Shown piece after piece: positions 22,225-32,497 of a stretch of 39,731 nucleotides of DNA. Under the pieces are notes generated by a model that had not been told where the DNA came from, ran no database searches, and saw only the letters and a list, made by a program, of their open reading frames with translations. The position numbers were made by a program, and so were the translations under genes. Each line of letters starts with the position of its first letter. Position 1 is the first letter of the stretch. Where the stretch lies: positions 1-39,731 of the forward strand of contig JANYIT010000372.1 of assembly GCA_025358725.1 (NCBI GenBank), written 5' to 3'. This DNA is from Chamaesiphon sp. GL140_3_metabinner_129_sub (GTDB lineage: Bacteria > Cyanobacteriota > Cyanobacteriia > Cyanobacteriales > Chamaesiphonaceae).

Positions 22225-23538
22225 ATGTTAAAAATTTGGCTTACCTGGTTACAACCTAGTCTTGGTGTTTTTGGAACAGCGTTAGTGTTATCTAGCCCTC
22301 TGTTTGCTAATGCTGCGCCCAAACCAGTAGTAGTTAGCAATATTAACAAAACACCAGCACATTCTTCACAATGGAGCCATGTAAAATCTGCTGACAGATC
22401 GATCGAACAAGAATTAGCGAATGGGATTGCTGGTACTCCAGATCTGGCCATTCGTCAACTAGCTATCAGTTCGATGGGGGCAAATGTTGTCGCTCAGTCA
22501 ACTAGTTCTACCATCAAAACGCCCAAAAGTAACCGGAATCCTCTAGCTAGCTTCGTTGCCCCCTCAGCAAGATTGCCGCAGCTCTCGGCAAAGGGCATCA
22601 AGCCACGGCAAGGCGGGCACTCCCTAGCATTAGCTCGTCTAAACAAACCTAAAATTACTGTACCAGTACCAGGATTATTCATTGGCACCGCCGATGTTCG
22701 GGTATCCAATAAATTTTTACCTAACGTCAAGCCCATCAGTCAATCAATCGCATCTACTACAGAAATCGGTGCGCCGACACCTTTATCAGCAATGATGGCT
22801 GCAAAAACGGCAGTCGATCCTTTTCCTGTCGTGCGTCCAGAGCTGATGCAAAAGCTACAAGGAATTTCTACAGCATCAGCAGTTCAGGCAGCACCACATG
22901 CTCTGAATCCAATTGCGGCAATTCCATCTAACCGAAATAAGGTTGTGGCACCAAAGACAATTAGTGTAAAGGCTGTGGTACCTCAATCACTAGATCCGAT
23001 TGCCGCTATCCCCTCTGGATTGCAACGGTTACTAGGTAATAACCTCAACAGTCAGCCAACAGTTGCGGCGGTACCATTAGCAAAGACAATTGCGCCGAAA
23101 CCAGGCTCACTCCTGGCTCTGCAATATTTAACTTCTCCTACGGTTACGCCTGTATCAGTTAGTGCCGCTAGCCTCCAGTTAGCTACGTCCCAAGCCTACA
23201 CCAGCGTACCAAAATTTAGTATTCCTGGAGAAACGCTCTTGGCTGGTAGAGCGATGAAGCCTGTTGTTAATTTGGTAGCTATTAAGCGCGTACAAAAGAA
23301 CTTGGTAACTACAGTTGCTGAGCGCAAAGACAACTATGTAGCCATCATGAACGATCGACACTTAACACCTGCATCAAAGTCTTGGACAGTCGTCGATCAA
23401 CGTAACACTTTGGGTGGGTTAATTTTAGGATCTCAACCGCTAGCAACAGTGACTAGAGTAGTGAATTTAACACCAACGAGCACTGTGAAGGCTCATACCT
23501 CTGGACTTGCAGGTCGGAATCTAGCTGATTTTAACTAG
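22225..23538 (+). CDS. Exported Ala/Thr/Pro-rich protein of unknown function
   Basis: 437 residues. The N terminus has a signal peptide (LKIWLTWLQPSLGVFGTALVLSSPLFANAA, probable cleavage after ANA-A). The mature part is rich in A, T, P, S and V with few charged runs and looks largely unfolded. A short motif occurs twice: ALNPIAAIPSNRN and SLDPIAAIPSGLQRLLGNN, about 37 residues apart. I do not recognise a family or catalytic motif. It may be a cell-wall or periplasmic structural protein. It is convergent with the phycocyanin operon and ends 22 bp before a strong bidirectional terminator. Confidence 0.7.
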   Translation: MLKIWLTWLQPSLGVFGTALVLSSPLFANAAPKPVVVSNINKTPAHSSQWSHVKSADRSIEQELANGIAGTPDLAIRQLAISSMGANVVAQSTSSTIKTPKSNRNPLASFVAPSARLPQLSAKGIKPRQGGHSLALARLNKPKITVPVPGLFIGTADVRVSNKFLPNVKPISQSIASTTEIGAPTPLSAMMAAKTAVDPFPVVRPELMQKLQGISTASAVQAAPHALNPIAAIPSNRNKVVAPKTISVKAVVPQSLDPIAAIPSGLQRLLGNNLNSQPTVAAVPLAKTIAPKPGSLLALQYLTSPTVTPVSVSAASLQLATSQAYTSVPKFSIPGETLLAGRAMKPVVNLVAIKRVQKNLVTTVAERKDNYVAIMNDRHLTPASKSWTVVDQRNTLGGLILGSQPLATVTRVVNLTPTSTVKAHTSGLAGRNLADFN

Positions 23539-23560
23539 TATTTTACTACAATGTAAACCT

Positions 23561-23600
23561 AAAATCCCCTACTTGTAAGAGCACAAGTAGGGGATTTTTG
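23561..23600. terminator. Strong bidirectional terminator
   Basis: A 15-bp perfect stem (AAATCCCCTACTTGT and its complement) with a 6-nt loop, flanked by A and T tracts. It separates the exported-protein gene from the convergent cpcD and should end both transcripts. Confidence 0.88.
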
Positions 23601-23642
23601 CTCAAATCTAATTGGTGGGAGCAATCTAAATCCCTATGAGAT

Positions 23643-23873
23643 TTAGCCTAATGGATGAATACTGACAATTGTGCCACCCATTCTCAAAATCTGCTGCATC
23701 TTTTCATTCATCCGATTATGGGGAACTTGCACAAAAGTGCTAGCACTAGTGCGAATCTGACGATCGGATTGAACGGTGATATCATTTTGCTGTAATCCGG
23801 TTACTTCGTAGACGAAAATCCGGTTATCGGCTGTCGCACTCGAACCTCTAGAAAAAGCTGATTGTCCTAACAT
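23643..23873 (-). CDS. cpcD: Phycobilisome rod-capping linker CpcD
   Basis: 76 residues, a normal CpcD length, with the CpcD fold pattern NRIFVYEVTGLQQN, ...FVQVPHNRMNEKMQQILRMGGTIVSI. CpcD sits at the core-distal end of the rod and stops rod growth. The ATG has GAGGA about 10 bp upstream. It is the last gene of the cpc operon, before a terminator; cpcE and cpcF, often downstream, are not here. Confidence 0.95.
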   Translation of the reverse strand: MLGQSAFSRGSSATADNRIFVYEVTGLQQNDITVQSDRQIRTSASTFVQVPHNRMNEKMQQILRMGGTIVSIHPLG

Positions 23874-23926
23874 TTAGTTTAATTCCTCATTAATAAGTGA
23901 ATAAGTGGAAAATGTTATTTTTCCTA

Positions 23927-23948
23927 CGCCAACACGTTGGTGTTGGCG
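23927..23948. repeat. Hairpin between cpcC1 and cpcD
   Basis: A perfect 9-bp palindromic stem (CGCCAACAC, loop GTTG) in the 87-bp gap between the two linker genes. It belongs to the family of GTTGGCG-containing dispersed palindromes seen elsewhere in the window and could stabilise the upstream transcript. Confidence 0.6.
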
Positions 23949-23960
23949 ATAGACGTAAGA

Positions 23961-24827
23961 TTAAGCTAAGGTAACACTAGCTACTTTGCCACCAATCTTA
24001 TTGATGTACTGAAGTGTGCTGTTGAGTTGTTCGTAGGAAACGATAAACTCCTTGTTACTGCGGCGCACGCGGGGATAGCGGGGTAGGCTAATACTCGCTA
24101 CTTCAATCCGATAGAGTCGGTTTGATTCGCCCATTGTCGATCGACCAAATACCCGATTAGGCATCGAACTTTCAGCAGTACCTTGGTATGCAAAGCCATC
24201 ATTACCACCAGAAGGGGGAATCACTGCGGAAGTACTGTTGCTACCGAGTTCGCCAGCTAGACGAGATTTGCTACCAGCGACTTGGGATGTATCGCTATTT
24301 GCATAGCCCCGATAGAGCCGGAACATCCGGGTAAATCCTTGGGTTTGTTGACCGATTTGATACTCGAAACTGCGACAGTAAGGGACGATCGAATCCCCAA
24401 AATTCTCGTCATATTCGTTAGAATCGATATAAGAATCGATATCGGCATCATAACCGTGGTTTTGATATCGATCGAGATGTTCGATTACTTCAGACTCGTT
24501 ATAGGGAGCGCGTCCTAGTAGGTGTTTGCAGTGTAATTCGATCGCGCGAGTCTGAAAAACTGCGTGAAAAAATTTGTTTTTATATAGCTCAGATTTAGCG
24601 ACACCGCGCACGAATTCCCGTACGGTAATTTGACCGTTGCAGAGCAGGGATTCGAGTCCAACGAGGCGTTCGTTTGCCATCAAATAGTCGTTGCCTAGTA
24701 CCTGACGGTAGACGGCACGGATCACGATTTGGGCATCGGCTGGAGACCAGTTACTGCGTAGTTCGAGCGGTTTAGCATCGCTGTAGGCAGTAGTGCCTAA
24801 GCGAGCAGCTCCTGTTGTAATTGCCAC
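23961..24827 (-). CDS. cpcC: Phycocyanin rod linker CpcC (distal copy)
   Basis: 288 residues with a GTG start, supported by AAGGAG 8 bp upstream. Residues about 20-150 form the phycobilisome linker domain PF00427 ([52 protein letters not shown]), and the C-terminal 60 residues form a CpcD-like domain ([11 protein letters not shown]...[22 protein letters not shown]). CpcC joins phycocyanin hexamers within the rod. The second, clearly paralogous linker lies immediately upstream in the operon, so the rods are probably built from three phycocyanin hexamers, with each linker at a distinct level. Confidence 0.93.
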
Positions 24828-24901
24828 AGATTTTGCTCCTTATATTTTATTTATTAGCTATTTGTGTACAAGCAAGTCGAAACAGACTGCGGCGGAGATC
24901 T

Positions 24902-24985
24902 ACCCACCCCCCCCTACGGGTACCCCTCCAAGGAGGGGATTTTTCCGACTCCCTCCCCTTGTAAAGGGGAGGGCTGGGGTGGGGT
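24902..24985. repeat. Dispersed palindromic repeat between the two cpcC genes
   Basis: Contains two hairpins, CCCCTCC/GGAGGGG (24923-24938) and CTCCCCTT/AAGGGGAG (24953-24971), flanked by GGGGTGGG-type sequence. It resembles the common cyanobacterial repeat built on CCCCTCCTTGGAGGGG. Its location inside the operon could affect relative linker levels. Confidence 0.65.
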
Positions 24986-24991
24986 AAAATT

Positions 24992-25807
24992 CTAAGCCCT
25001 GTCGATACTGACAACCCGACTACCACGCTGGTTCAAGCGTTGGAGCGTGCTATTGAGTTGCTCATAAGTCACGAGACACTCGCTCGAACTGCGACGGACT
25101 TGAGTAGTGCGACTGCGATTAGCTTGAACGATACTAATCCGGTACATTTGTCCCCGCGATCCTTTAGCATTACCAGCTAAACCGCGACCTGAATTAGGCG
25201 TGCGGACGGTGGATGCTGAACTGTGAGCCAATTCTGTCGTCAGTGCCGCACCCTTGTTATTGCCTTGAGCGCGATCGCTATTGGCATAACCCTGGTACAG
25301 TTGGAACATCCGCGTAAAACCAACACTTGTTTGTCCCCGTTGGGTAGCAAAACCACGATGGTAAGGTACAACAGCTTCGCCAAAGCTGTCTTGATATTCC
25401 ATTGAGTCCATGTAAGAGTCGATTTCAGCCGTGTAGCCACGATCAATAAACCGATTTACATGTTCGGTAATTTCCGCCTCATTCGCTGGGGCACGACCTA
25501 ATAAGTGCTTAAAGGTCAGTTCGATGAACCGCACTTGGGGAGTCGAATAAAAGAATTTTTGTTTATATAGTTCTGATTGTGCCAATGCCCGCACAAAATC
25601 CCGCACGGTCATCGCTCCATTCTGGAGGAGTGATTCCGCACTGGTTAACCTGTCGCTTTCCATGATATGGTCGTTGCCGAAGACCTGCCGATAAGCAGCC
25701 CAAATTACAGCCCGAACATTATCCTCAGAGTTCGTCCGCAGCTCTACTGGCGAGTTACCAGCAAACGGCTCAAACCCTAACTGTCTTGCAGCCATAGAAC
25801 TTGTCAT
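24992..25807 (-). CDS. cpcC: Phycocyanin rod linker CpcC (proximal copy)
   Basis: Start chosen at [17 protein letters not shown] (271 residues), which has AAGGA about 9 bp upstream; the longer track start lies inside the intergenic hairpin. The protein has the PF00427 linker domain ([56 protein letters not shown]) and a CpcD-like C terminus ([13 protein letters not shown]...[20 protein letters not shown]). It connects phycocyanin hexamers in phycobilisome rods. It differs substantially from the second copy, particularly in the spacer between the two domains. Confidence 0.93.
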
Positions 25808-25840
25808 AGTGCTATTCCTTAATTTATATGTGCTTACAAC

Positions 25841-25910
25841 AATCCCAGAGCCACAGGACATCATTCGTTCCCACCCTTGAGCACGAATGACAGCCTATAG
25901 TTCTGGGAAT
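25841..25910 (-). promoter_or_regulatory. Large nested hairpin between cpcA and cpcC
   Basis: An outer stem TCCCAGA/TCTGGGA and an inner stem CATTCGT/ACGAATG enclose about 14 nt. A hairpin at this place, after cpcA, commonly acts as a partial terminator or mRNA stabiliser in cyanobacteria, making phycocyanin subunits far more abundant than linkers. That role is inferred from position. Confidence 0.65.
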
Positions 25911-25922
25911 TTTAGGAGCAAA

Positions 25923-26411
25923 TTAGCTCAATGCATTGATCGCATAATCGATGTAGGAATTGGCTTCGCTAGCAGAGTCGCCGGAGAGACCGTGGTTAGC
26001 TTTGACATATTTGAGAGCTTCTACATACCAGCTAGGAGACAATTCAAAAGTAGAATTGATTTCAGCCAAACCACCAATCAGGTAGTCATCCATCGGGCCA
26101 GTACTACCAGCAATTAGGCAGTAGGAAACCATCCGAACGTAGTAACCAATGTCACGAGCACATTTAGCTTTACCGCGAGGGGTAGAAGCGTAGTTGTTGC
26201 CGCTCATGGTAGTGGTGTAAGGAAATTTACTATAAACTGCGTTAGCAGCACCATCAGCTAAGCTTTGAGCTTTGCCACTGAGAGCTTTAGCTGCATCGAG
26301 GCTAGCAGTAGCCTGACGGATGCGACCAAAAGCGACTTGGAGTTCGGTGGAACTCAAGAAACGACCTTGGGAATCAGCGGTAGCTACAGCTTCGGTTAAA
26401 GGAGTTTTCAT
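25923..26411 (-). CDS. cpcA: C-phycocyanin alpha subunit
   Basis: 162 residues, the standard CpcA length, with the N terminus [25 protein letters not shown] and the bilin-binding Cys84 in [13 protein letters not shown]. It pairs with CpcB to form the alpha-beta monomer of phycobilisome rods and carries one phycocyanobilin. It lies 62 bp after cpcB. Upstream sequence AAGTAAAAAATG-like is A-rich without a strong Shine-Dalgarno core. Confidence 0.97.
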
Positions 26412-26473
26412 TTTTTACTTATCTCTCAATCAATAATTTTGCAAACATTAACTAGCGATCGGTCAAGGTAGGA

Positions 26474-26992
26474 TTAACCTACGGCAGAAGCAGCGCGATC
26501 GAAATAACCACCTAACTCAGCCATTAGAGAGCTACAGTCGCCTTTGGTGATGCCGTTGGGGTCATTGGCAATTGCGATTGCAGCGTCTTTCATTTTGCCG
26601 ACACCACTAGCTACGGAACCACCTGGAACACCTAGTGCGAGGTAAGTTTCACGCAAGCCATTGAGACAACGATCGTCGAGTACGCTAGCATCACCAGTAA
26701 AGGTAGCGTAAGTAACGTAGCGTAAAATGATTTCCATGTCGCGTAAGCAAGCTGCCATGCGACGGTTGGTGTAAGCATTTCCACCAGGAGCGATCAAGTT
26801 TGGTTGATCGTCAAATAGTGAACGAGCTGCGTTAGCTACAATTGCGGAAGAGTTGGAAGTGATCCGGTTAACAATATCAATTCTTTTGGTGCCATCAGCT
26901 ACCATAGCTTTGAGTGCATCAATCTGAGAATCGCTAGCAAATGTACCTTGGGCATCTGCTTGAGCAACTACTTTAGTAAAAGCATCTAACAT
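26474..26992 (-). CDS. cpcB: C-phycocyanin beta subunit
   Basis: 172 residues. Both bilin-binding cysteines are in the canonical positions, Cys82 ([14 protein letters not shown]) and Cys153 (TKGDCSSLM), and Asn72 (GGNAYTNRR), the residue gamma-N-methylated in phycobiliproteins, is present. It is the first gene of the operon cpcB-cpcA-cpcC-cpcC-cpcD. The upstream region contains an L-box-like direct repeat 114-131 bp before the start codon, which suggests control by the RcaC-like regulator encoded 1.4 kb away. GGGAG lies about 11 bp before the ATG. Confidence 0.97.
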
Positions 26993-27105
26993 CTAAGGAA
27001 ACTCCCTATGTTGCAATATAAATTACTTTGAAAAATATGAATTCCCGATTGATATGTGTCAGGAATTCAATGTCTTTTGAACCAATTTGATTAAACCAAT
27101 TTGCT

Positions 27106-27123
27106 CGTGCAAATTTTGTGCAA
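27106..27123 (-). promoter_or_regulatory. L-box-like RcaC binding site upstream of cpcB
   Basis: On the cpcB coding strand the sequence reads TTGCACA, AAAT, TTGCACG. The established L box of Fremyella diplosiphon is TTGCACA-N4-TTGCACA, bound by phosphorylated RcaC upstream of cpc2 and pcyA. This copy has the exact spacing and 13 of 14 matching bases, lies 114 bp before the cpcB start, and is near genes for RcaC-, RcaF- and RcaE-like proteins. I could not place a confident -10/-35 pair relative to it. Confidence 0.75.
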
Positions 27124-27259
27124 ATTTCTGTCGATCGAGCAAATAATTCAATTTGAAAATGTTGGATGAGTCCCAATGACTTACAGGGTAAAGAATCTAG
27201 CTTTCTGAGAATATTCTATAAATTGTAAAGCTATCGTTACATTGCCGACCTCTGACTTC

Positions 27260-27277
27260 TTGCACACATTCTACACA
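27260..27277 (+). promoter_or_regulatory. Degenerate L-box-like repeat facing pcyA
   Basis: TTGCACA, CATT, CTACACA on the plus strand, the direction of pcyA transcription. The first half-site is perfect and the second matches 5 of 7 bases with the correct N4 spacing. It lies about 240 bp before the pcyA start, with a hairpin repeat in between. On its own it would be weak, but pcyA is a known L-box target in Fremyella. Confidence 0.45.
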
Positions 27278-27310
27278 GGCGATCGACGACAGTAATGAAA
27301 AGCTTCAGAT

Positions 27311-27390
27311 AGATCCCCGACTTCTTGAAGAAGCGGCTCGCGTTCCTCGAGTTCCCCGAGGGTTTAGCGAGACAAGAAAGTCGGGGATCT
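27311..27390. repeat. Dispersed hairpin repeat between cpcB and pcyA
   Basis: Outer arms AGATCCCCGACTT and AAGTCGGGGATCT (13 bp, perfect) enclose about 50 nt with further short palindromes (CTCGAGTTCCCCGAG). Related sequence appears at 11722 and 37107-37145. It probably separates regulatory elements of the divergent cpcB and pcyA genes. Confidence 0.65.
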
Positions 27391-27514
27391 ATTCGAGCAA
27401 ATGAATTTAGATTATGAGTGGCAATTTTATCGATCGATGTGCAATGATTTGACAATCGATCTAAATTAAATTTCCCTTCCAGAAACTTAATTACGAATTA
27501 TTAAAATAAAATTT

Positions 27515-28258
27515 ATGCCTACATCATTACGTGCTAAACAACATCCCCTGATCCGTCAACTAGCCGATCGAATCGAAAGTACCTGGCAAGAACATCTCAA
27601 TCTCTCACCCTATCAAATTCCCCACGATCTTGGCTATGTAGAAGGGAATCTCGAAGGCGAACGCCTAGTCATCGAAAATCGTTGCCATCAAACCCCCCAA
27701 TTTCGGAAAATCCACCTCGAACTCGCACAAGTCGGCAAAAACTTAGACATCCTCCACTGTGTGATGTTTCCCCATCCTGATTACGATCTGCCGATTTTTG
27801 GGGCGGATATCGTCTGTGGGAGAGGTGTGATTAGTGCCGCAATTGTCGATTTGTCGCCTGTCGATCGATCGCGATCTTTACCAACTAGTTACCAACTCCC
27901 CTTATTTGGACTACCCGAAGTCAAATTCGCTCAAGTTCGAGACTTACCAGCGTGGGGAGATATTTTTTCTGATTATTGCTTGTTTGTCCGTCCGGTAGAT
28001 GCTGATGAAGAAGCAGCTTTTGTCGAGTATGTACTGTCGATGCTGACGATTCATTGCCAGATTGCCAGTCACACCCAACCTGCTACTTCTGCACCAGCAA
28101 TCGCAACAATCCTAGCTGGACAAAAGTATTATTGCGATCGACAACAACAGAATGATAAAACCCGCCGAGTCTTAGAAAAATCCTTTGGGACTGAATGGGC
28201 CGATCGATATATGACTACGATGCTATTTGATTATGCCGCTAAAGTTGTGGCTTGTTAG
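27515..28258 (+). CDS. pcyA: Phycocyanobilin:ferredoxin oxidoreductase
   Basis: 247 residues. Strong PcyA features: DILHCVMFPHPDYDLPIFGADIVCGRGVISAAIVDLSP. The catalytic residues known in Synechocystis PcyA (Glu76, His88, Asp105) correspond to Glu69, His81 and Asp98 here, all present with a constant offset of seven. The enzyme reduces biliverdin IX-alpha with four ferredoxin-derived electrons to phycocyanobilin, the chromophore attached to CpcA and CpcB. It is divergent from the cpc operon, linking chromophore and apoprotein genes. A degenerate L-box-like repeat lies upstream. Confidence 0.95.
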   Translation: MPTSLRAKQHPLIRQLADRIESTWQEHLNLSPYQIPHDLGYVEGNLEGERLVIENRCHQTPQFRKIHLELAQVGKNLDILHCVMFPHPDYDLPIFGADIVCGRGVISAAIVDLSPVDRSRSLPTSYQLPLFGLPEVKFAQVRDLPAWGDIFSDYCLFVRPVDADEEAAFVEYVLSMLTIHCQIASHTQPATSAPAIATILAGQKYYCDRQQQNDKTRRVLEKSFGTEWADRYMTTMLFDYAAKVVAC

Positions 28259-28343
28259 TCTGTCAGCGATGAAATCGCCGCCACATTGGTAAAGTCTGGT
28301 TTATCTATTTGCAACTTAGCTGAGGTTTTCCAACTTTCAACTT

Positions 28344-30242
28344 TCAACTAATTTGAAGCCGCGCCAACCGATGACGGATACGCCCTGCTAGTTCGCCACC
28401 CATGATGGGCTTGGACAGATAGTCATCTGCACCGACCTTAAATGCCTCCTGCTGGGCGATCGAGTCTTTACTCGCACTCAGAAATAAAATCGGTAAACGT
28501 TGCCACTGGGGGTCACTACGCAGGACTTGGCAGAGTTCTAAGCCATTAATTTCTGGCATTTTGATGTCCAAGACTAGGGCATCGGGTTGAACTAATTGTA
28601 GTACTGTCCAAAACTGCTGTGGATCGGCAAGAGTAGTTACCTTCATGCCCCAGGGTTGTAATAATTTGGGAAGAGCGCGTAACCAATCGAGATCGTCATC
28701 GACTACCATGACCTTCATGATCGTGCTGACAGCCGGAAGAGCGGAAGTTGCCGCCGTAAAGATTTGCTTGGTTGTTAGTGCGGTGGAGCCGAGAAATTTC
28801 CCGCCATGACGCACAACAGCCAATCGAAGATCGATCGATTCATCTTGTTCGCCCAATACCACTACCGACCAGTCAGGAAACCGCTGATGCACTTTGTCGA
28901 TCGAACCTAATGTGGGACTGGATTCTTTGTTAGCTGGGAGGCTGATTAATACTACCGTGGGTGCAGGTGAATGGGGCGCGGTGGAGAAATAGCGATCAGC
29001 AGCCTCAATCGTCGCTAATGTGCTGGTGCGGAACCCCCGATGTTCAGCCATCTCTGTCAAGGCTAGAGCTAAATTCGGATTGAGATTGATGAATAATAGT
29101 AAGGGTAAATCGGGACTGGGGACAGCCGTTTGTTGACTGGGTAATGTGTCTAAGATTTCTCGTGCCAATTTGCTCACATAAGTTTGCAGCGGTACAGCTT
29201 CAGTAGTGGATAATAGGGTCGATCGATCGAGTAACATTTCAATCTGACGGGTGATTTCCATCGCTGATACCAAGGAAAATACACCTAATGTACCGACTAA
29301 TTTGTGAGCTTGTTGGTGAGCTTGTTGTTGTTCGGGGTAAGTACAGTTACCTAAACATAATCGATCAACTGTCGCAGTCAGTTCAGTTAAACTCTGGACA
29401 CATTTGGGTTTAGTTGTTACCCATGTTTCCTGAAGGAAGGCTAGATAGTCCGCTTGTTGCTGGTGCGACTGAATTGGTGCATCGACTTCATGAATTGCCC
29501 CTACCAGAGCATTTGAGATTTCATGTTGTTTTGAAGCAACAATGGCAAAATTTTTAGTTGGATTGGGCTGGGGAGATTTGAGATAATAGCCTCGACCATG
29601 AATGGTACTGATAAAATCGGCGGGTGCGCCTACGGCTTGGAGTTTGTGGCGCAGTCTCCGCAAATGAGATCGAACTGTCGCTTCAGCCGGAAAATCGTCG
29701 GAAGACCACAATCGATCGATGATTTCATCGCTACTAAAGATGCGATAACTGTCTCTGAGTAATAGTTCTAATAAATCGTATTCCTTGGTCGTCAGAGCCA
29801 ATGCTTGCCCATTATAGGTGACTTCACAAGTACTCGGATTGAGCAGGAGATCGCCCCAACTCATTAGGGGCAATGGGTTCGTACTACCTCTCCGGAGTAA
29901 CGCCCGCACTCGCGCCGTCAGTTCGGCAATATCAAAAGGTTTGACCACATAGTCATCCGCCCCCGCGTCCAATCCCTGCACCTTAGCAGTAGTATTATCT
30001 TGGGAAGTTAAGAGCAAAATTGGTGTCGTATAACCTGCCCCCCGCAACTTTTTGCAGAGACTAATCCCATCCAATTTGGGTAGCATAATATCCAACACGA
30101 TCGAGTCATAGTCAAAAGTGGAAGCATAAGTCCACCCCATTTCTCCATCCTTGACCGCATCGACAATATGATGTTGAGAACTCAGACTCCGAGTTAATAG
30201 GGCGATTAATGCATCATCATCTTCTATTAACAGAATTTTCAT
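28344..30242 (-). CDS. rcaC: RcaC-like response regulator: REC - OmpR DNA-binding - HPt - pseudo-REC - REC
   Basis: 632 residues. REC1 (1-120, phospho-acceptor Asp51 in IVLDIMLP), winged-helix OmpR/PhoB domain (about 128-225; TTKEYDLLELLL, VRSHLRRLRHKL, TIHGRGYYL), an HPt domain (about 260-370) with His313 in QQAHKLVGTLG, a receiver-like segment (about 380-490) without an acceptor Asp, and a C-terminal REC (about 508-628, Asp559 in ALVLDIKMP). The order and positions agree with RcaC of Fremyella (as I recall, Asp51, His316 and Asp576), the DNA-binding regulator of chromatic acclimation. Similar multi-domain OmpR regulators exist in other contexts, but an L box before cpcB and adjacent rcaF/rcaE-like genes support this name. 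Confidence 0.8.
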   Translation of the reverse strand: MKILLIEDDDALIALLTRSLSSQHHIVDAVKDGEMGWTYASTFDYDSIVLDIMLPKLDGISLCKKLRGAGYTTPILLLTSQDNTTAKVQGLDAGADDYVVKPFDIAELTARVRALLRRGSTNPLPLMSWGDLLLNPSTCEVTYNGQALALTTKEYDLLELLLRDSYRIFSSDEIIDRLWSSDDFPAEATVRSHLRRLRHKLQAVGAPADFISTIHGRGYYLKSPQPNPTKNFAIVASKQHEISNALVGAIHEVDAPIQSHQQQADYLAFLQETWVTTKPKCVQSLTELTATVDRLCLGNCTYPEQQQAHQQAHKLVGTLGVFSLVSAMEITRQIEMLLDRSTLLSTTEAVPLQTYVSKLAREILDTLPSQQTAVPSPDLPLLLFINLNPNLALALTEMAEHRGFRTSTLATIEAADRYFSTAPHSPAPTVVLISLPANKESSPTLGSIDKVHQRFPDWSVVVLGEQDESIDLRLAVVRHGGKFLGSTALTTKQIFTAATSALPAVSTIMKVMVVDDDLDWLRALPKLLQPWGMKVTTLADPQQFWTVLQLVQPDALVLDIKMPEINGLELCQVLRSDPQWQRLPILFLSASKDSIAQQEAFKVGADDYLSKPIMGGELAGRIRHRLARLQIS

Positions 30243-30306
30243 AGATATCTAACTTAATCCGCGTAATTTCGCTTTCATACTTACAATTCCCACTCAGCTT
30301 ATATTT

Positions 30307-30681
30307 TTACCAATTAAGAATCTTGGCAATTCGATCGGGTAAATCAAGTGAATTAAAAGGCTTGGTAATCACCCCACTGATTCCGAGATCGTTGAACTGT
30401 CTGCGTTCAGCAGCTTGGGCTTTGGCCGTAAGGAATATAACTGGAATTCCAGCGGTAATTGGATTTGCTTGCAGTGCTTTGAAAGTAGCAATTCCATCCA
30501 TTTCTGGCATCATTACATCCAGTAGAATTGCATCGGGAAGTTCTCTTTGAGCAGTATCAATCCCCGTCTTTCCCTCACTAGCGGATAACACCTCCCACCC
30601 GGCTGCTAACTTAATTCCAAATTTGACAACTGTGTGGATCGCTTCTTCATCATCGATCATTAATAAACGTTTATGATTCAT
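30307..30681 (-). CDS. rcaF: RcaF-like single-domain response regulator
   Basis: Start chosen at MNHKRLLMIDDEEAIH (124 residues); the track start adds twelve residues inside the upstream gene. A complete receiver domain: acidic pair in IDDEE, phospho-acceptor Asp55 (AILLDVMMPEMDG), Thr in FLTAKA and Lys in ITKPFN. There is no output domain, as expected for a phosphate shuttle. The start overlaps the end of the kinase gene by 11 bp, implying translational coupling and a matched pair. In the Rca pathway RcaF carries phosphate from RcaE to RcaC, whose gene follows 64 bp downstream. Confidence 0.8.
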   Translation of the reverse strand: MNHKRLLMIDDEEAIHTVVKFGIKLAAGWEVLSASEGKTGIDTAQRELPDAILLDVMMPEMDGIATFKALQANPITAGIPVIFLTAKAQAAERRQFNDLGISGVITKPFNSLDLPDRIAKILNW

Positions 30682-32497
30682 ACAACGGCAAGGTAAAAGA
30701 GAAAATACTGCCAACACCTAGGCTACTATCTACCCAGATTTTACCTTCATGTTGCTCGATAATTTTGCGACAAATTGTCAAACCTAAACCTGTACCACCT
30801 TTTTTGCGAGAATCAGAAGAGTCCACCTGCTGGAATCGCTCAAAAATACTTTCCAATTTATTGTCAGGTATTCCTTGTCCTTCATCGCGCACTTGAAATA
30901 AAACATCCAGCGGTGCTGAGACTGTCAACCACACAGTTTTACCAGGGGCGGAAAATTTGATGGCATTGCTAATTAAATTAGTCAAAGCCTGGACGATATA
31001 ATCCGCATCCACCCATAACTTAAGATCTAAATGCTGATTGACTAGGGTAATTCCATGCTGTTGCGCCATCGCTTGCATCGCATCTACAGCTTGAATCATC
31101 AAATCGGTAGCATTACAGACTTGTTTTTCCATCGTCACTGCCCCCGATTCGATCCGTTGGAGATCGAGGACGCTATTAACTAGACGTACCAAACGTTCGG
31201 TATTGTCATCGGCGATCGATAAAAGTTGCTGTCCATCCTTGGGGAGGGTGCCCAAGCGTCCGGTAGCGAGGATTTTTAGGGCACTATGGAGGGATGTAAG
31301 GGGGGTTCTAAGTTCGTGGCTGACGACGGAAATAAATTCATCCTTCATCCGCTCGATCGCTTTTCGATCGCTGATATCGCTAGTCAAGGCAAAGAAACCG
31401 CTGACTCGTTCGCGGATCGGCTGCGGCGCAGCATCGTCGTTGTCGATATGGGGAATATAATTAATGCTAACCGATCGAGTACTCCCATCTTGGAGGATAA
31501 TTTCATTCTCGTAGGTGACGACTTTCCCTGCGAGGGCGGTATTAATATGGGGCTGCATTCGCCGATAACAATCTTCTCCCCAGACTTGACGCATTTGGGA
31601 GCCGTGGATCGAACTTAGTGGCTGTCCCAACCAGTTTGCATAGGCTTGATTATTAAATTGATAACACTCTTGATCGTCTACATAGGCGATTAAGACTGGG
31701 AGCGCGTTGGTAATCAGTCGTAGTTGTTCCTCACTTTGACGGAGGGCAATTTCTACCTGTTTGCGATCGTTAATTTCCTGTTGCAAGCTGGAATTTACCG
31801 CTTGGAGTTCGGCGGTGCGTTCTGCCACAACCTCCTCTAATTGCCCCCACAATTCCCCTTGAGCCAGAGCGATGCTAATCTGGTCAGCAAGCTGTTGCAT
31901 CAGTTCTAACTCAAAATCAACCCATTTGCGGGGACGATCGCATTGATGGGCAATCAACAATCCCCAGATTGCATTTTTCGGTGGATTCGATCGTGGCGGA
32001 TGAACACTCAAACTGTGTAAAATTGGGACGATTAATTTAGCTTTCACGCCAAATTGTTCGACAAATTCCACCAAACAATCAGCGACTTCTGCTGTCGGAT
32101 CGCTGACATCTGAGATCGCCCTCACTCGCCCTTTAGCATAAAGTTGTTGATAATCCAGCGGGAATACTTCCTCTGGAAATTCCATCCCCAAAATCGCTGG
32201 ATATTCAGGCAATACGGCTTCACTAATCGGTGTCCCCGTACCATCGGGCAGTACCTGATAAATCAAAACTCGATCAGCTTGCAAGACTTGCTGCACCTCA
32301 GTGACGATCGTCCGCAGAATTTCTTTTAACTGCAATGACTGGCGAATCTTGAGGGTAATTTCTGCAAATAATTCCACTCGGTGGCGTTCGCGCTGCAATT
32401 GTACGGTTGGCGGTGTCAGCATCGCCGGAATTTCTGCCGTAGTTTGACGGCGCGAACCCGATTTTCGTTTTGGTGGCTTGGAATGTTTACTTGTCAT
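30671..32497 (-). CDS. rcaE: GAF-PAS sensor histidine kinase, RcaE-like (candidate bilin photoreceptor)
   Basis: 608 residues, no membrane segment. A GAF domain (about 40-215), a short coiled coil, a PAS domain (about 255-375), HisKA (SVVSHELRTPLTSLHSAL) and HATPase (NLISNAIKFS, DEGQGIP, GGTGLGLTICRKIIEQHEG). The GAF domain resembles cyanobacteriochromes: VADCLVEFVEQFGVKAKLIVPI has Cys141 where these bind bilin, followed by Leu instead of the usual His, and IWGLLIAHQCDRPRKW follows. A 15-residue Pro/Ser insert separates the two. Domain order is that of RcaE, the red/green sensor of chromatic acclimation. Whether it binds phycocyanobilin cannot be decided from sequence, so the symbol is tentative. 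Confidence 0.7.
   Translation of the reverse strand: MTSKHSKPPKRKSGSRRQTTAEIPAMLTPPTVQLQRERHRVELFAEITLKIRQSLQLKEILRTIVTEVQQVLQADRVLIYQVLPDGTGTPISEAVLPEYPAILGMEFPEEVFPLDYQQLYAKGRVRAISDVSDPTAEVADCLVEFVEQFGVKAKLIVPILHSLSVHPPRSNPPKNAIWGLLIAHQCDRPRKWVDFELELMQQLADQISIALAQGELWGQLEEVVAERTAELQAVNSSLQQEINDRKQVEIALRQSEEQLRLITNALPVLIAYVDDQECYQFNNQAYANWLGQPLSSIHGSQMRQVWGEDCYRRMQPHINTALAGKVVTYENEIILQDGSTRSVSINYIPHIDNDDAAPQPIRERVSGFFALTSDISDRKAIERMKDEFISVVSHELRTPLTSLHSALKILATGRLGTLPKDGQQLLSIADDNTERLVRLVNSVLDLQRIESGAVTMEKQVCNATDLMIQAVDAMQAMAQQHGITLVNQHLDLKLWVDADYIVQALTNLISNAIKFSAPGKTVWLTVSAPLDVLFQVRDEGQGIPDNKLESIFERFQQVDSSDSRKKGGTGLGLTICRKIIEQHEGKIWVDSSLGVGSIFSFTLPLYES

Follow-up and report, generated by a model that had tools for sequence, protein, structure and literature searches.

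The direct repeat at positions 27106-27123 (minus strand) of the 39,731-nucleotide Chamaesiphon contig analysed here in its entirety (the window) is, with a probability that we put at roughly 93%, a working L box in the RcaE-RcaF-RcaC scheme, through which cpcB2A2 and pcyA would be activated and phycoerythrin would be held down in red light. That the repeat is a binding site for RcaC appears almost certain. This reading draws on sequence, rarity, conservation, orientation pattern, spacing and gene content, and from these we infer binding, the phosphorelay, the -10 element and start site, and the light response; for the direction of regulation we rely on published studies of Fremyella and Synechococcus PCC 7335. 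PMC8256508, citing earlier work, describes phosphorylated RcaC as binding L boxes in red light and activating cpc2 and pcyA, and describes pebAB as repressed, its box being reversed and farther from the start. The RcaC L box is that of Fremyella diplosiphon (Tolypothrix PCC 7601), and the same logic is reported for Synechococcus PCC 7335 (Li et al. 2008, cited in PMC8256508). An account of the RcaE-RcaF-RcaC phosphorelay is given in PMC4633512.

The plus-strand letters at 27106-27123 are CGTGCAAATTTTGTGCAA, and their reverse complement is TTGCACA AAAT TTGCACG. Scored against the consensus TTGCACA-N4-TTGCACA (18 bases, 14 fixed positions), the box agrees at 13 of 14 fixed positions, the sole mismatch being the final base, and its spacer is exactly 4. 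Both the box and cpcB2 lie on the minus strand, with 113 bp between the box and the ATG. Exactly 10 bp downstream of the box stands a predicted -10 hexamer, TTTAAT (27090-27095, minus strand; 5/6 against TATAAT), and the transcription start of cpcB2 is predicted near 27083, downstream of the L box, the side on which the L-box reading needs it to be.

A preliminary description of this DNA had reported two heptamers at exact spacing, with one mismatch and oriented with cpcB, which can be read directly at 27106-27123 (minus strand); the RcaC-like gene that it placed nearby is a full-length RcaC, with RcaF-like and RcaE-like genes alongside. It had also held chance to be unlikely and called for a genome-wide scan, and on both counts the scan bore it out. 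At no more than one mismatch, the 4.39-Mb genome contains only 3 sites, the two besides the cpcB2 box being inside reading frames, and the reversed control yields 0. At no more than two mismatches there are 24 sites (7 in the reversed control), and the motif, scarce as it is, is concentrated ahead of phycobilisome/bilin genes: 4 of the 24 sites precede such genes where 0.03 would be expected (P = 3.6e-8 assuming 12 promoters of 500 bp, P = 5e-7 with 13 regions of 900 bp, the promoter count being an estimate). These four sites precede cpcB2 and pcyA2, in the orientation of the gene, and cpeC-pebAB (contig C117) and cpeBA (contig C143), in the opposite orientation. Eleven other phycobilisome/bilin upstream regions of the same genome, including those of cpcB1, pcyA1 and apcE, offered matches with 3 mismatches at best; counting only sites that point the same way as the gene, the best upstream matches had 3 mismatches for cpcB1 and 6 for pcyA1. 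The paralogous cpcB and pcyA promoters lack the box, as would be expected of genes without RcaC control.

For comparison across species, RcaC loci were taken from named genomes and from family members. A forward box was present in 17 of 19 cpcB upstream regions, the two without it being second cpcB copies of loci L060 and L064 (best, 6 mismatches), and the 17 together with the window make up 18 cluster-linked promoters. TTTAAT, with its 5/6 matches to TATAAT, lies exactly 10 bp past the box in 18 of 18 box-bearing cpcB promoters, a proportion that overstates the number of independent cases because the compared promoters are related. When spacer length was varied across species, only length 4 gave a signal; permuted heptamers were found in a mean of at most 0.15 regions, and for one permutation the count rose to 9 at two mismatches. 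That every one of the 18 cluster-linked cpcB promoters retains the box, and at a constant distance from the -10-like hexamer, supports the interpretation as an L box that the preliminary description had offered.

Upstream of pcyA, 19 of 28 regions carried a box at no more than two mismatches, 54-89 bp before the start in most of the 19 and 408 bp before it in L095. The box of the window, missing from the preliminary description, is a second, degenerate L box at 27260-27277 (plus strand; TTGCACA-CATT-CTACACA) in the same orientation as pcyA2 (plus strand), located 237 bp before the ATG versus the usual 55-90. It has 2 mismatches and is found in the same relative place in four Chamaesiphon relatives, in which it has 3. 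Scans and alignment of Chamaesiphon promoters place both L boxes within the 522-bp divergent promoter region between cpcB2 and pcyA2 (26993-27514). Outside Chamaesiphon, in clusters where all three are found together, rcaC, pcyA and cpcB are co-directional; in the window and in genomes G001, G002, G004 and G008, pcyA and cpcB diverge with both boxes between them (5 of 5 Chamaesiphon divergent promoters). In the alignment of these promoters, the cpcB box and the TTTAAT block form conserved islands in a leader that otherwise diverges; box positions in the relatives come from direct scans, since MAFFT placed this box wrongly upstream of pcyA in G001 and G002. Another site near pcyA2, at 27438-27455 (minus strand; 3 mismatches), was rejected as the pcyA box, being wrongly oriented and of a class of loose matches that occurs at chance level. 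When offsets were compared across promoters, no one position stood out for a -10 element of pcyA.

The pcyA leader has other features. In the stretch separating the L box of pcyA from the gene lies a 76-bp hairpin at 27313-27388 (ATCCCCGACTTCTT...GTCGGGGAT). It is a larger form of a 29-bp palindrome that is dispersed over the genome, where it occurs at about 30 sites, and a short version occupies the same spot in G004 and G008. Just upstream of the pcyA L box, at 27224-27241, is an inverted repeat, TGTAA-N8-TTACA, which is unique in the window (0.04 expected) and the core of which is largely kept across five Chamaesiphon genomes; it is possibly a site for an extra regulator. An Rfam scan of 23500-31000 returned no match.

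The genes around the box are those that an L-box genome would be expected to encode. On the minus strand, cpcB2 (26474-26992; C-phycocyanin beta subunit, 172 aa; NCBIfam TIGR01339 above cut-off) is followed by cpcA2 (25923-26411; alpha subunit, 162 aa; TIGR01338 above cut-off) and by two phycocyanin rod linkers, each with PBS_linker_poly and CpcD domains: one of cpcH/I type (24992-25864), with orthologues after cpcBA in other RcaC clusters, and a second (23961-24827) assigned from domain content and comparison with other clusters. Divergent from cpcB2 is pcyA2 (27515-28258, plus strand; phycocyanobilin:ferredoxin oxidoreductase, 247 aa; NF002760, 356 bits versus a cut-off of 206). RcaC, RcaF and RcaE are all encoded, on the minus strand: rcaC (28344-30242; 632 aa) comprises a receiver, an OmpR/PhoB DNA-binding domain, an HPt-like AHKL segment and a second receiver; the rcaF-like gene (30307-30717), for a single-domain response regulator, has, in most clusters, a syntenic orthologue that lies between rcaE and rcaC; and rcaE (30671-32497) encodes a GAF-PAS-histidine kinase photoreceptor whose GAF domain matches solved RcaE (7CKV, E = 8e-71; 8K9O, E = 8e-82). 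In the 7CKV alignment, the window RcaE retains the E of FPEEVFP, both C and L of ADCLVEF, and the K of VKAKLIV; C is the chromophore cysteine, and we take E, L and K to be the RcaE protochromic triad, E217, L249 and K261 (Glu/Leu/Lys). Judged by alignment, the protein has the chromophore Cys and the apparent triad of a green/red GAF domain. The closest matches to the RcaC of the window are from Chamaesiphon MAGs (72-75% identity), and the cluster is, to judge from its genes, the complete red/green light acclimation gene set of a Chamaesiphon-type cyanobacterium.

Might the repeat be a real direct-repeat operator that serves another OmpR/PhoB-family regulator, for instance RpaB (HLR1), CcaR (G box) or the RcaC-like protein of contig C124? 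An 11-bp direct-repeat style is common to OmpR/PhoB regulators, the same genome encodes another RcaC-like protein (39% identity) at C124:22205-24145, and one G-box-like half site, CTTTACAATTT, does occur in the cpcB2-pcyA2 intergenic region. However, that region contains no HLR1 or NtcA match, and the CcaR G box consists of two CTTTNCNATTT units in direct repeat, of which the region has one, on the minus strand only. The TTGCACA box, moreover, tracks the presence of RcaC. Within the family, the reversed box before cpeC is found in 5 of 6 members with RcaC versus 0 of 5 without (Fisher P = 0.015), the exception being G007, in which RcaC is present and the cpeC box absent. Within the order (120 genomes, RcaC presence being a match at E <= 1e-140), perfect boxes occur in 4 of 7 genomes with RcaC versus 6 of 113 without (P = 8e-4), and in three of those 4 (G029, G076 and G116) a perfect box is on the rcaC contig. 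The RcaC recognition helix, EATVRSHxRRxRxKL, is also near-invariant across box-bearing clusters, and we consider another regulator improbable. On its contig, the gene for the C124 protein is accompanied by pcyA1 and a rod linker gene, and relatives of the protein occur in G006 and G007.

Less probable still is that the box is a relic, the genes remaining in a lineage in which it no longer mediates a colour response. The single mismatch of the cpcB box, the two of the pcyA box and the hairpin repeat in the pcyA leader would suit such decay, but the cluster genes are all open reading frames, the key residues of RcaE and RcaC are kept, and the boxes persist between Chamaesiphon species while other leader sequence diverges. 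Chance, that is, two TTGCAC words falling together in an A/T-rich promoter, can be dismissed: matches at up to 3 mismatches do occur in the window at the chance rate (4 versus 4.2 expected) and are uninformative for that reason, but the box itself is conserved across species, in the same place in relatives and in other orders, with N4 spacing only and with enrichment before the expected genes.

We thus return to the L box and to how RcaC would act on it. In red light, the RcaE sensor would phosphorylate RcaF and then RcaC, and a phosphorylated RcaC dimer would occupy both heptamers head to tail on a single face of the helix, as the 11-bp period of the repeat suggests. In the PhoB pho box, an 18-bp site bound by a winged-helix OmpR/PhoB regulator, two 7-bp direct repeats with an 11-bp period lie 10 bp before the -10 element. 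The cpcB2 L box shares the 18-bp size, the 11-bp period and the 10-bp gap to the -10 element, whereas its heptamer and its regulator are different and the signal is light colour. Because this period and the fixed gap to the -10-like hexamer match PhoB-type activation, we infer that RcaC, its downstream edge 10 bp before TTTAAT, would replace the -35 element and recruit RNA polymerase to cpcB2A2. The degenerate second box would serve likewise for pcyA, transcribed the other way, whose product makes the bilin needed by phycocyanin. It is conceivable, though we hold this only tentatively, that inversion of pcyA in Chamaesiphon made one bidirectional red-light switch, in which two RcaC boxes of unequal strength set antenna protein and bilin pigment together, with the ratio of pigment to protein perhaps adjusted by the weak pcyA box and the hairpin in the leader.

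As in Fremyella diplosiphon, two TTGCACA-type heptamers separated by N4 stand in activating orientation before the cpc2-type operon and pcyA, boxes before phycoerythrin/pebAB genes are reversed, and RcaE, RcaF and RcaC are encoded. Unlike in that organism, pcyA here diverges from cpcB2, so that a single 522-bp region contains both activating boxes; the box of pcyA is degenerate, and an extra reversed box precedes cpeBA. The CcaS/CcaR system (CA1/CA2 acclimation) resembles the present one in that a green/red cyanobacteriochrome two-component pair controls phycobilisome genes through a direct-repeat operator, but the G box, as given in PMC8256508, is CTTTCCGATTTCTTTACGATTT. The Chamaesiphon MAGs of a glacier study were reported to contain ccaS rather than rcaE (PMC8941735). 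Neither the L box nor its regulator nor the orientation rule is new; what is added here is a Chamaesiphon member, the divergent promoter shared by the two boxes and the spacing rule across species, the last of which earlier promoter studies may already have implied. CA3-type colour acclimation in full, DNA switch included, would thereby be placed in Chamaesiphon. The promoter rule obtained by species comparison (L box, 10 bp, TTTAAT) supports a PhoB-like mechanism of activation by RcaC and makes it possible to recognise red-light phycocyanin promoters by sequence alone.

On the repression side, the reversed boxes are at C117:4424 (minus strand), before cpeC-pebAB (plus strand), and at C143:9235 (plus strand), before cpeBA (minus strand). 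RcaC bound at the former, and probably at the latter too, would hold down phycoerythrin in red light. The cpeBA box was seen in two Chamaesiphon genomes only, that of the window and G002. Upstream of cpeC in G004 (L197), about 177-206 bp before the start, two reversed L boxes overlap, giving three heptamers in phase at 11-bp steps, and G008 has a similar pair. On C143 of the window genome (L009, 1666-2837), a 73-aa ORF and a 305-aa ORF, the latter with the look, by eye, of a CpcE/CpeY-type lyase, diverge from cpeBA, and towards these two ORFs the L box of cpeBA has the orientation of an activating site.
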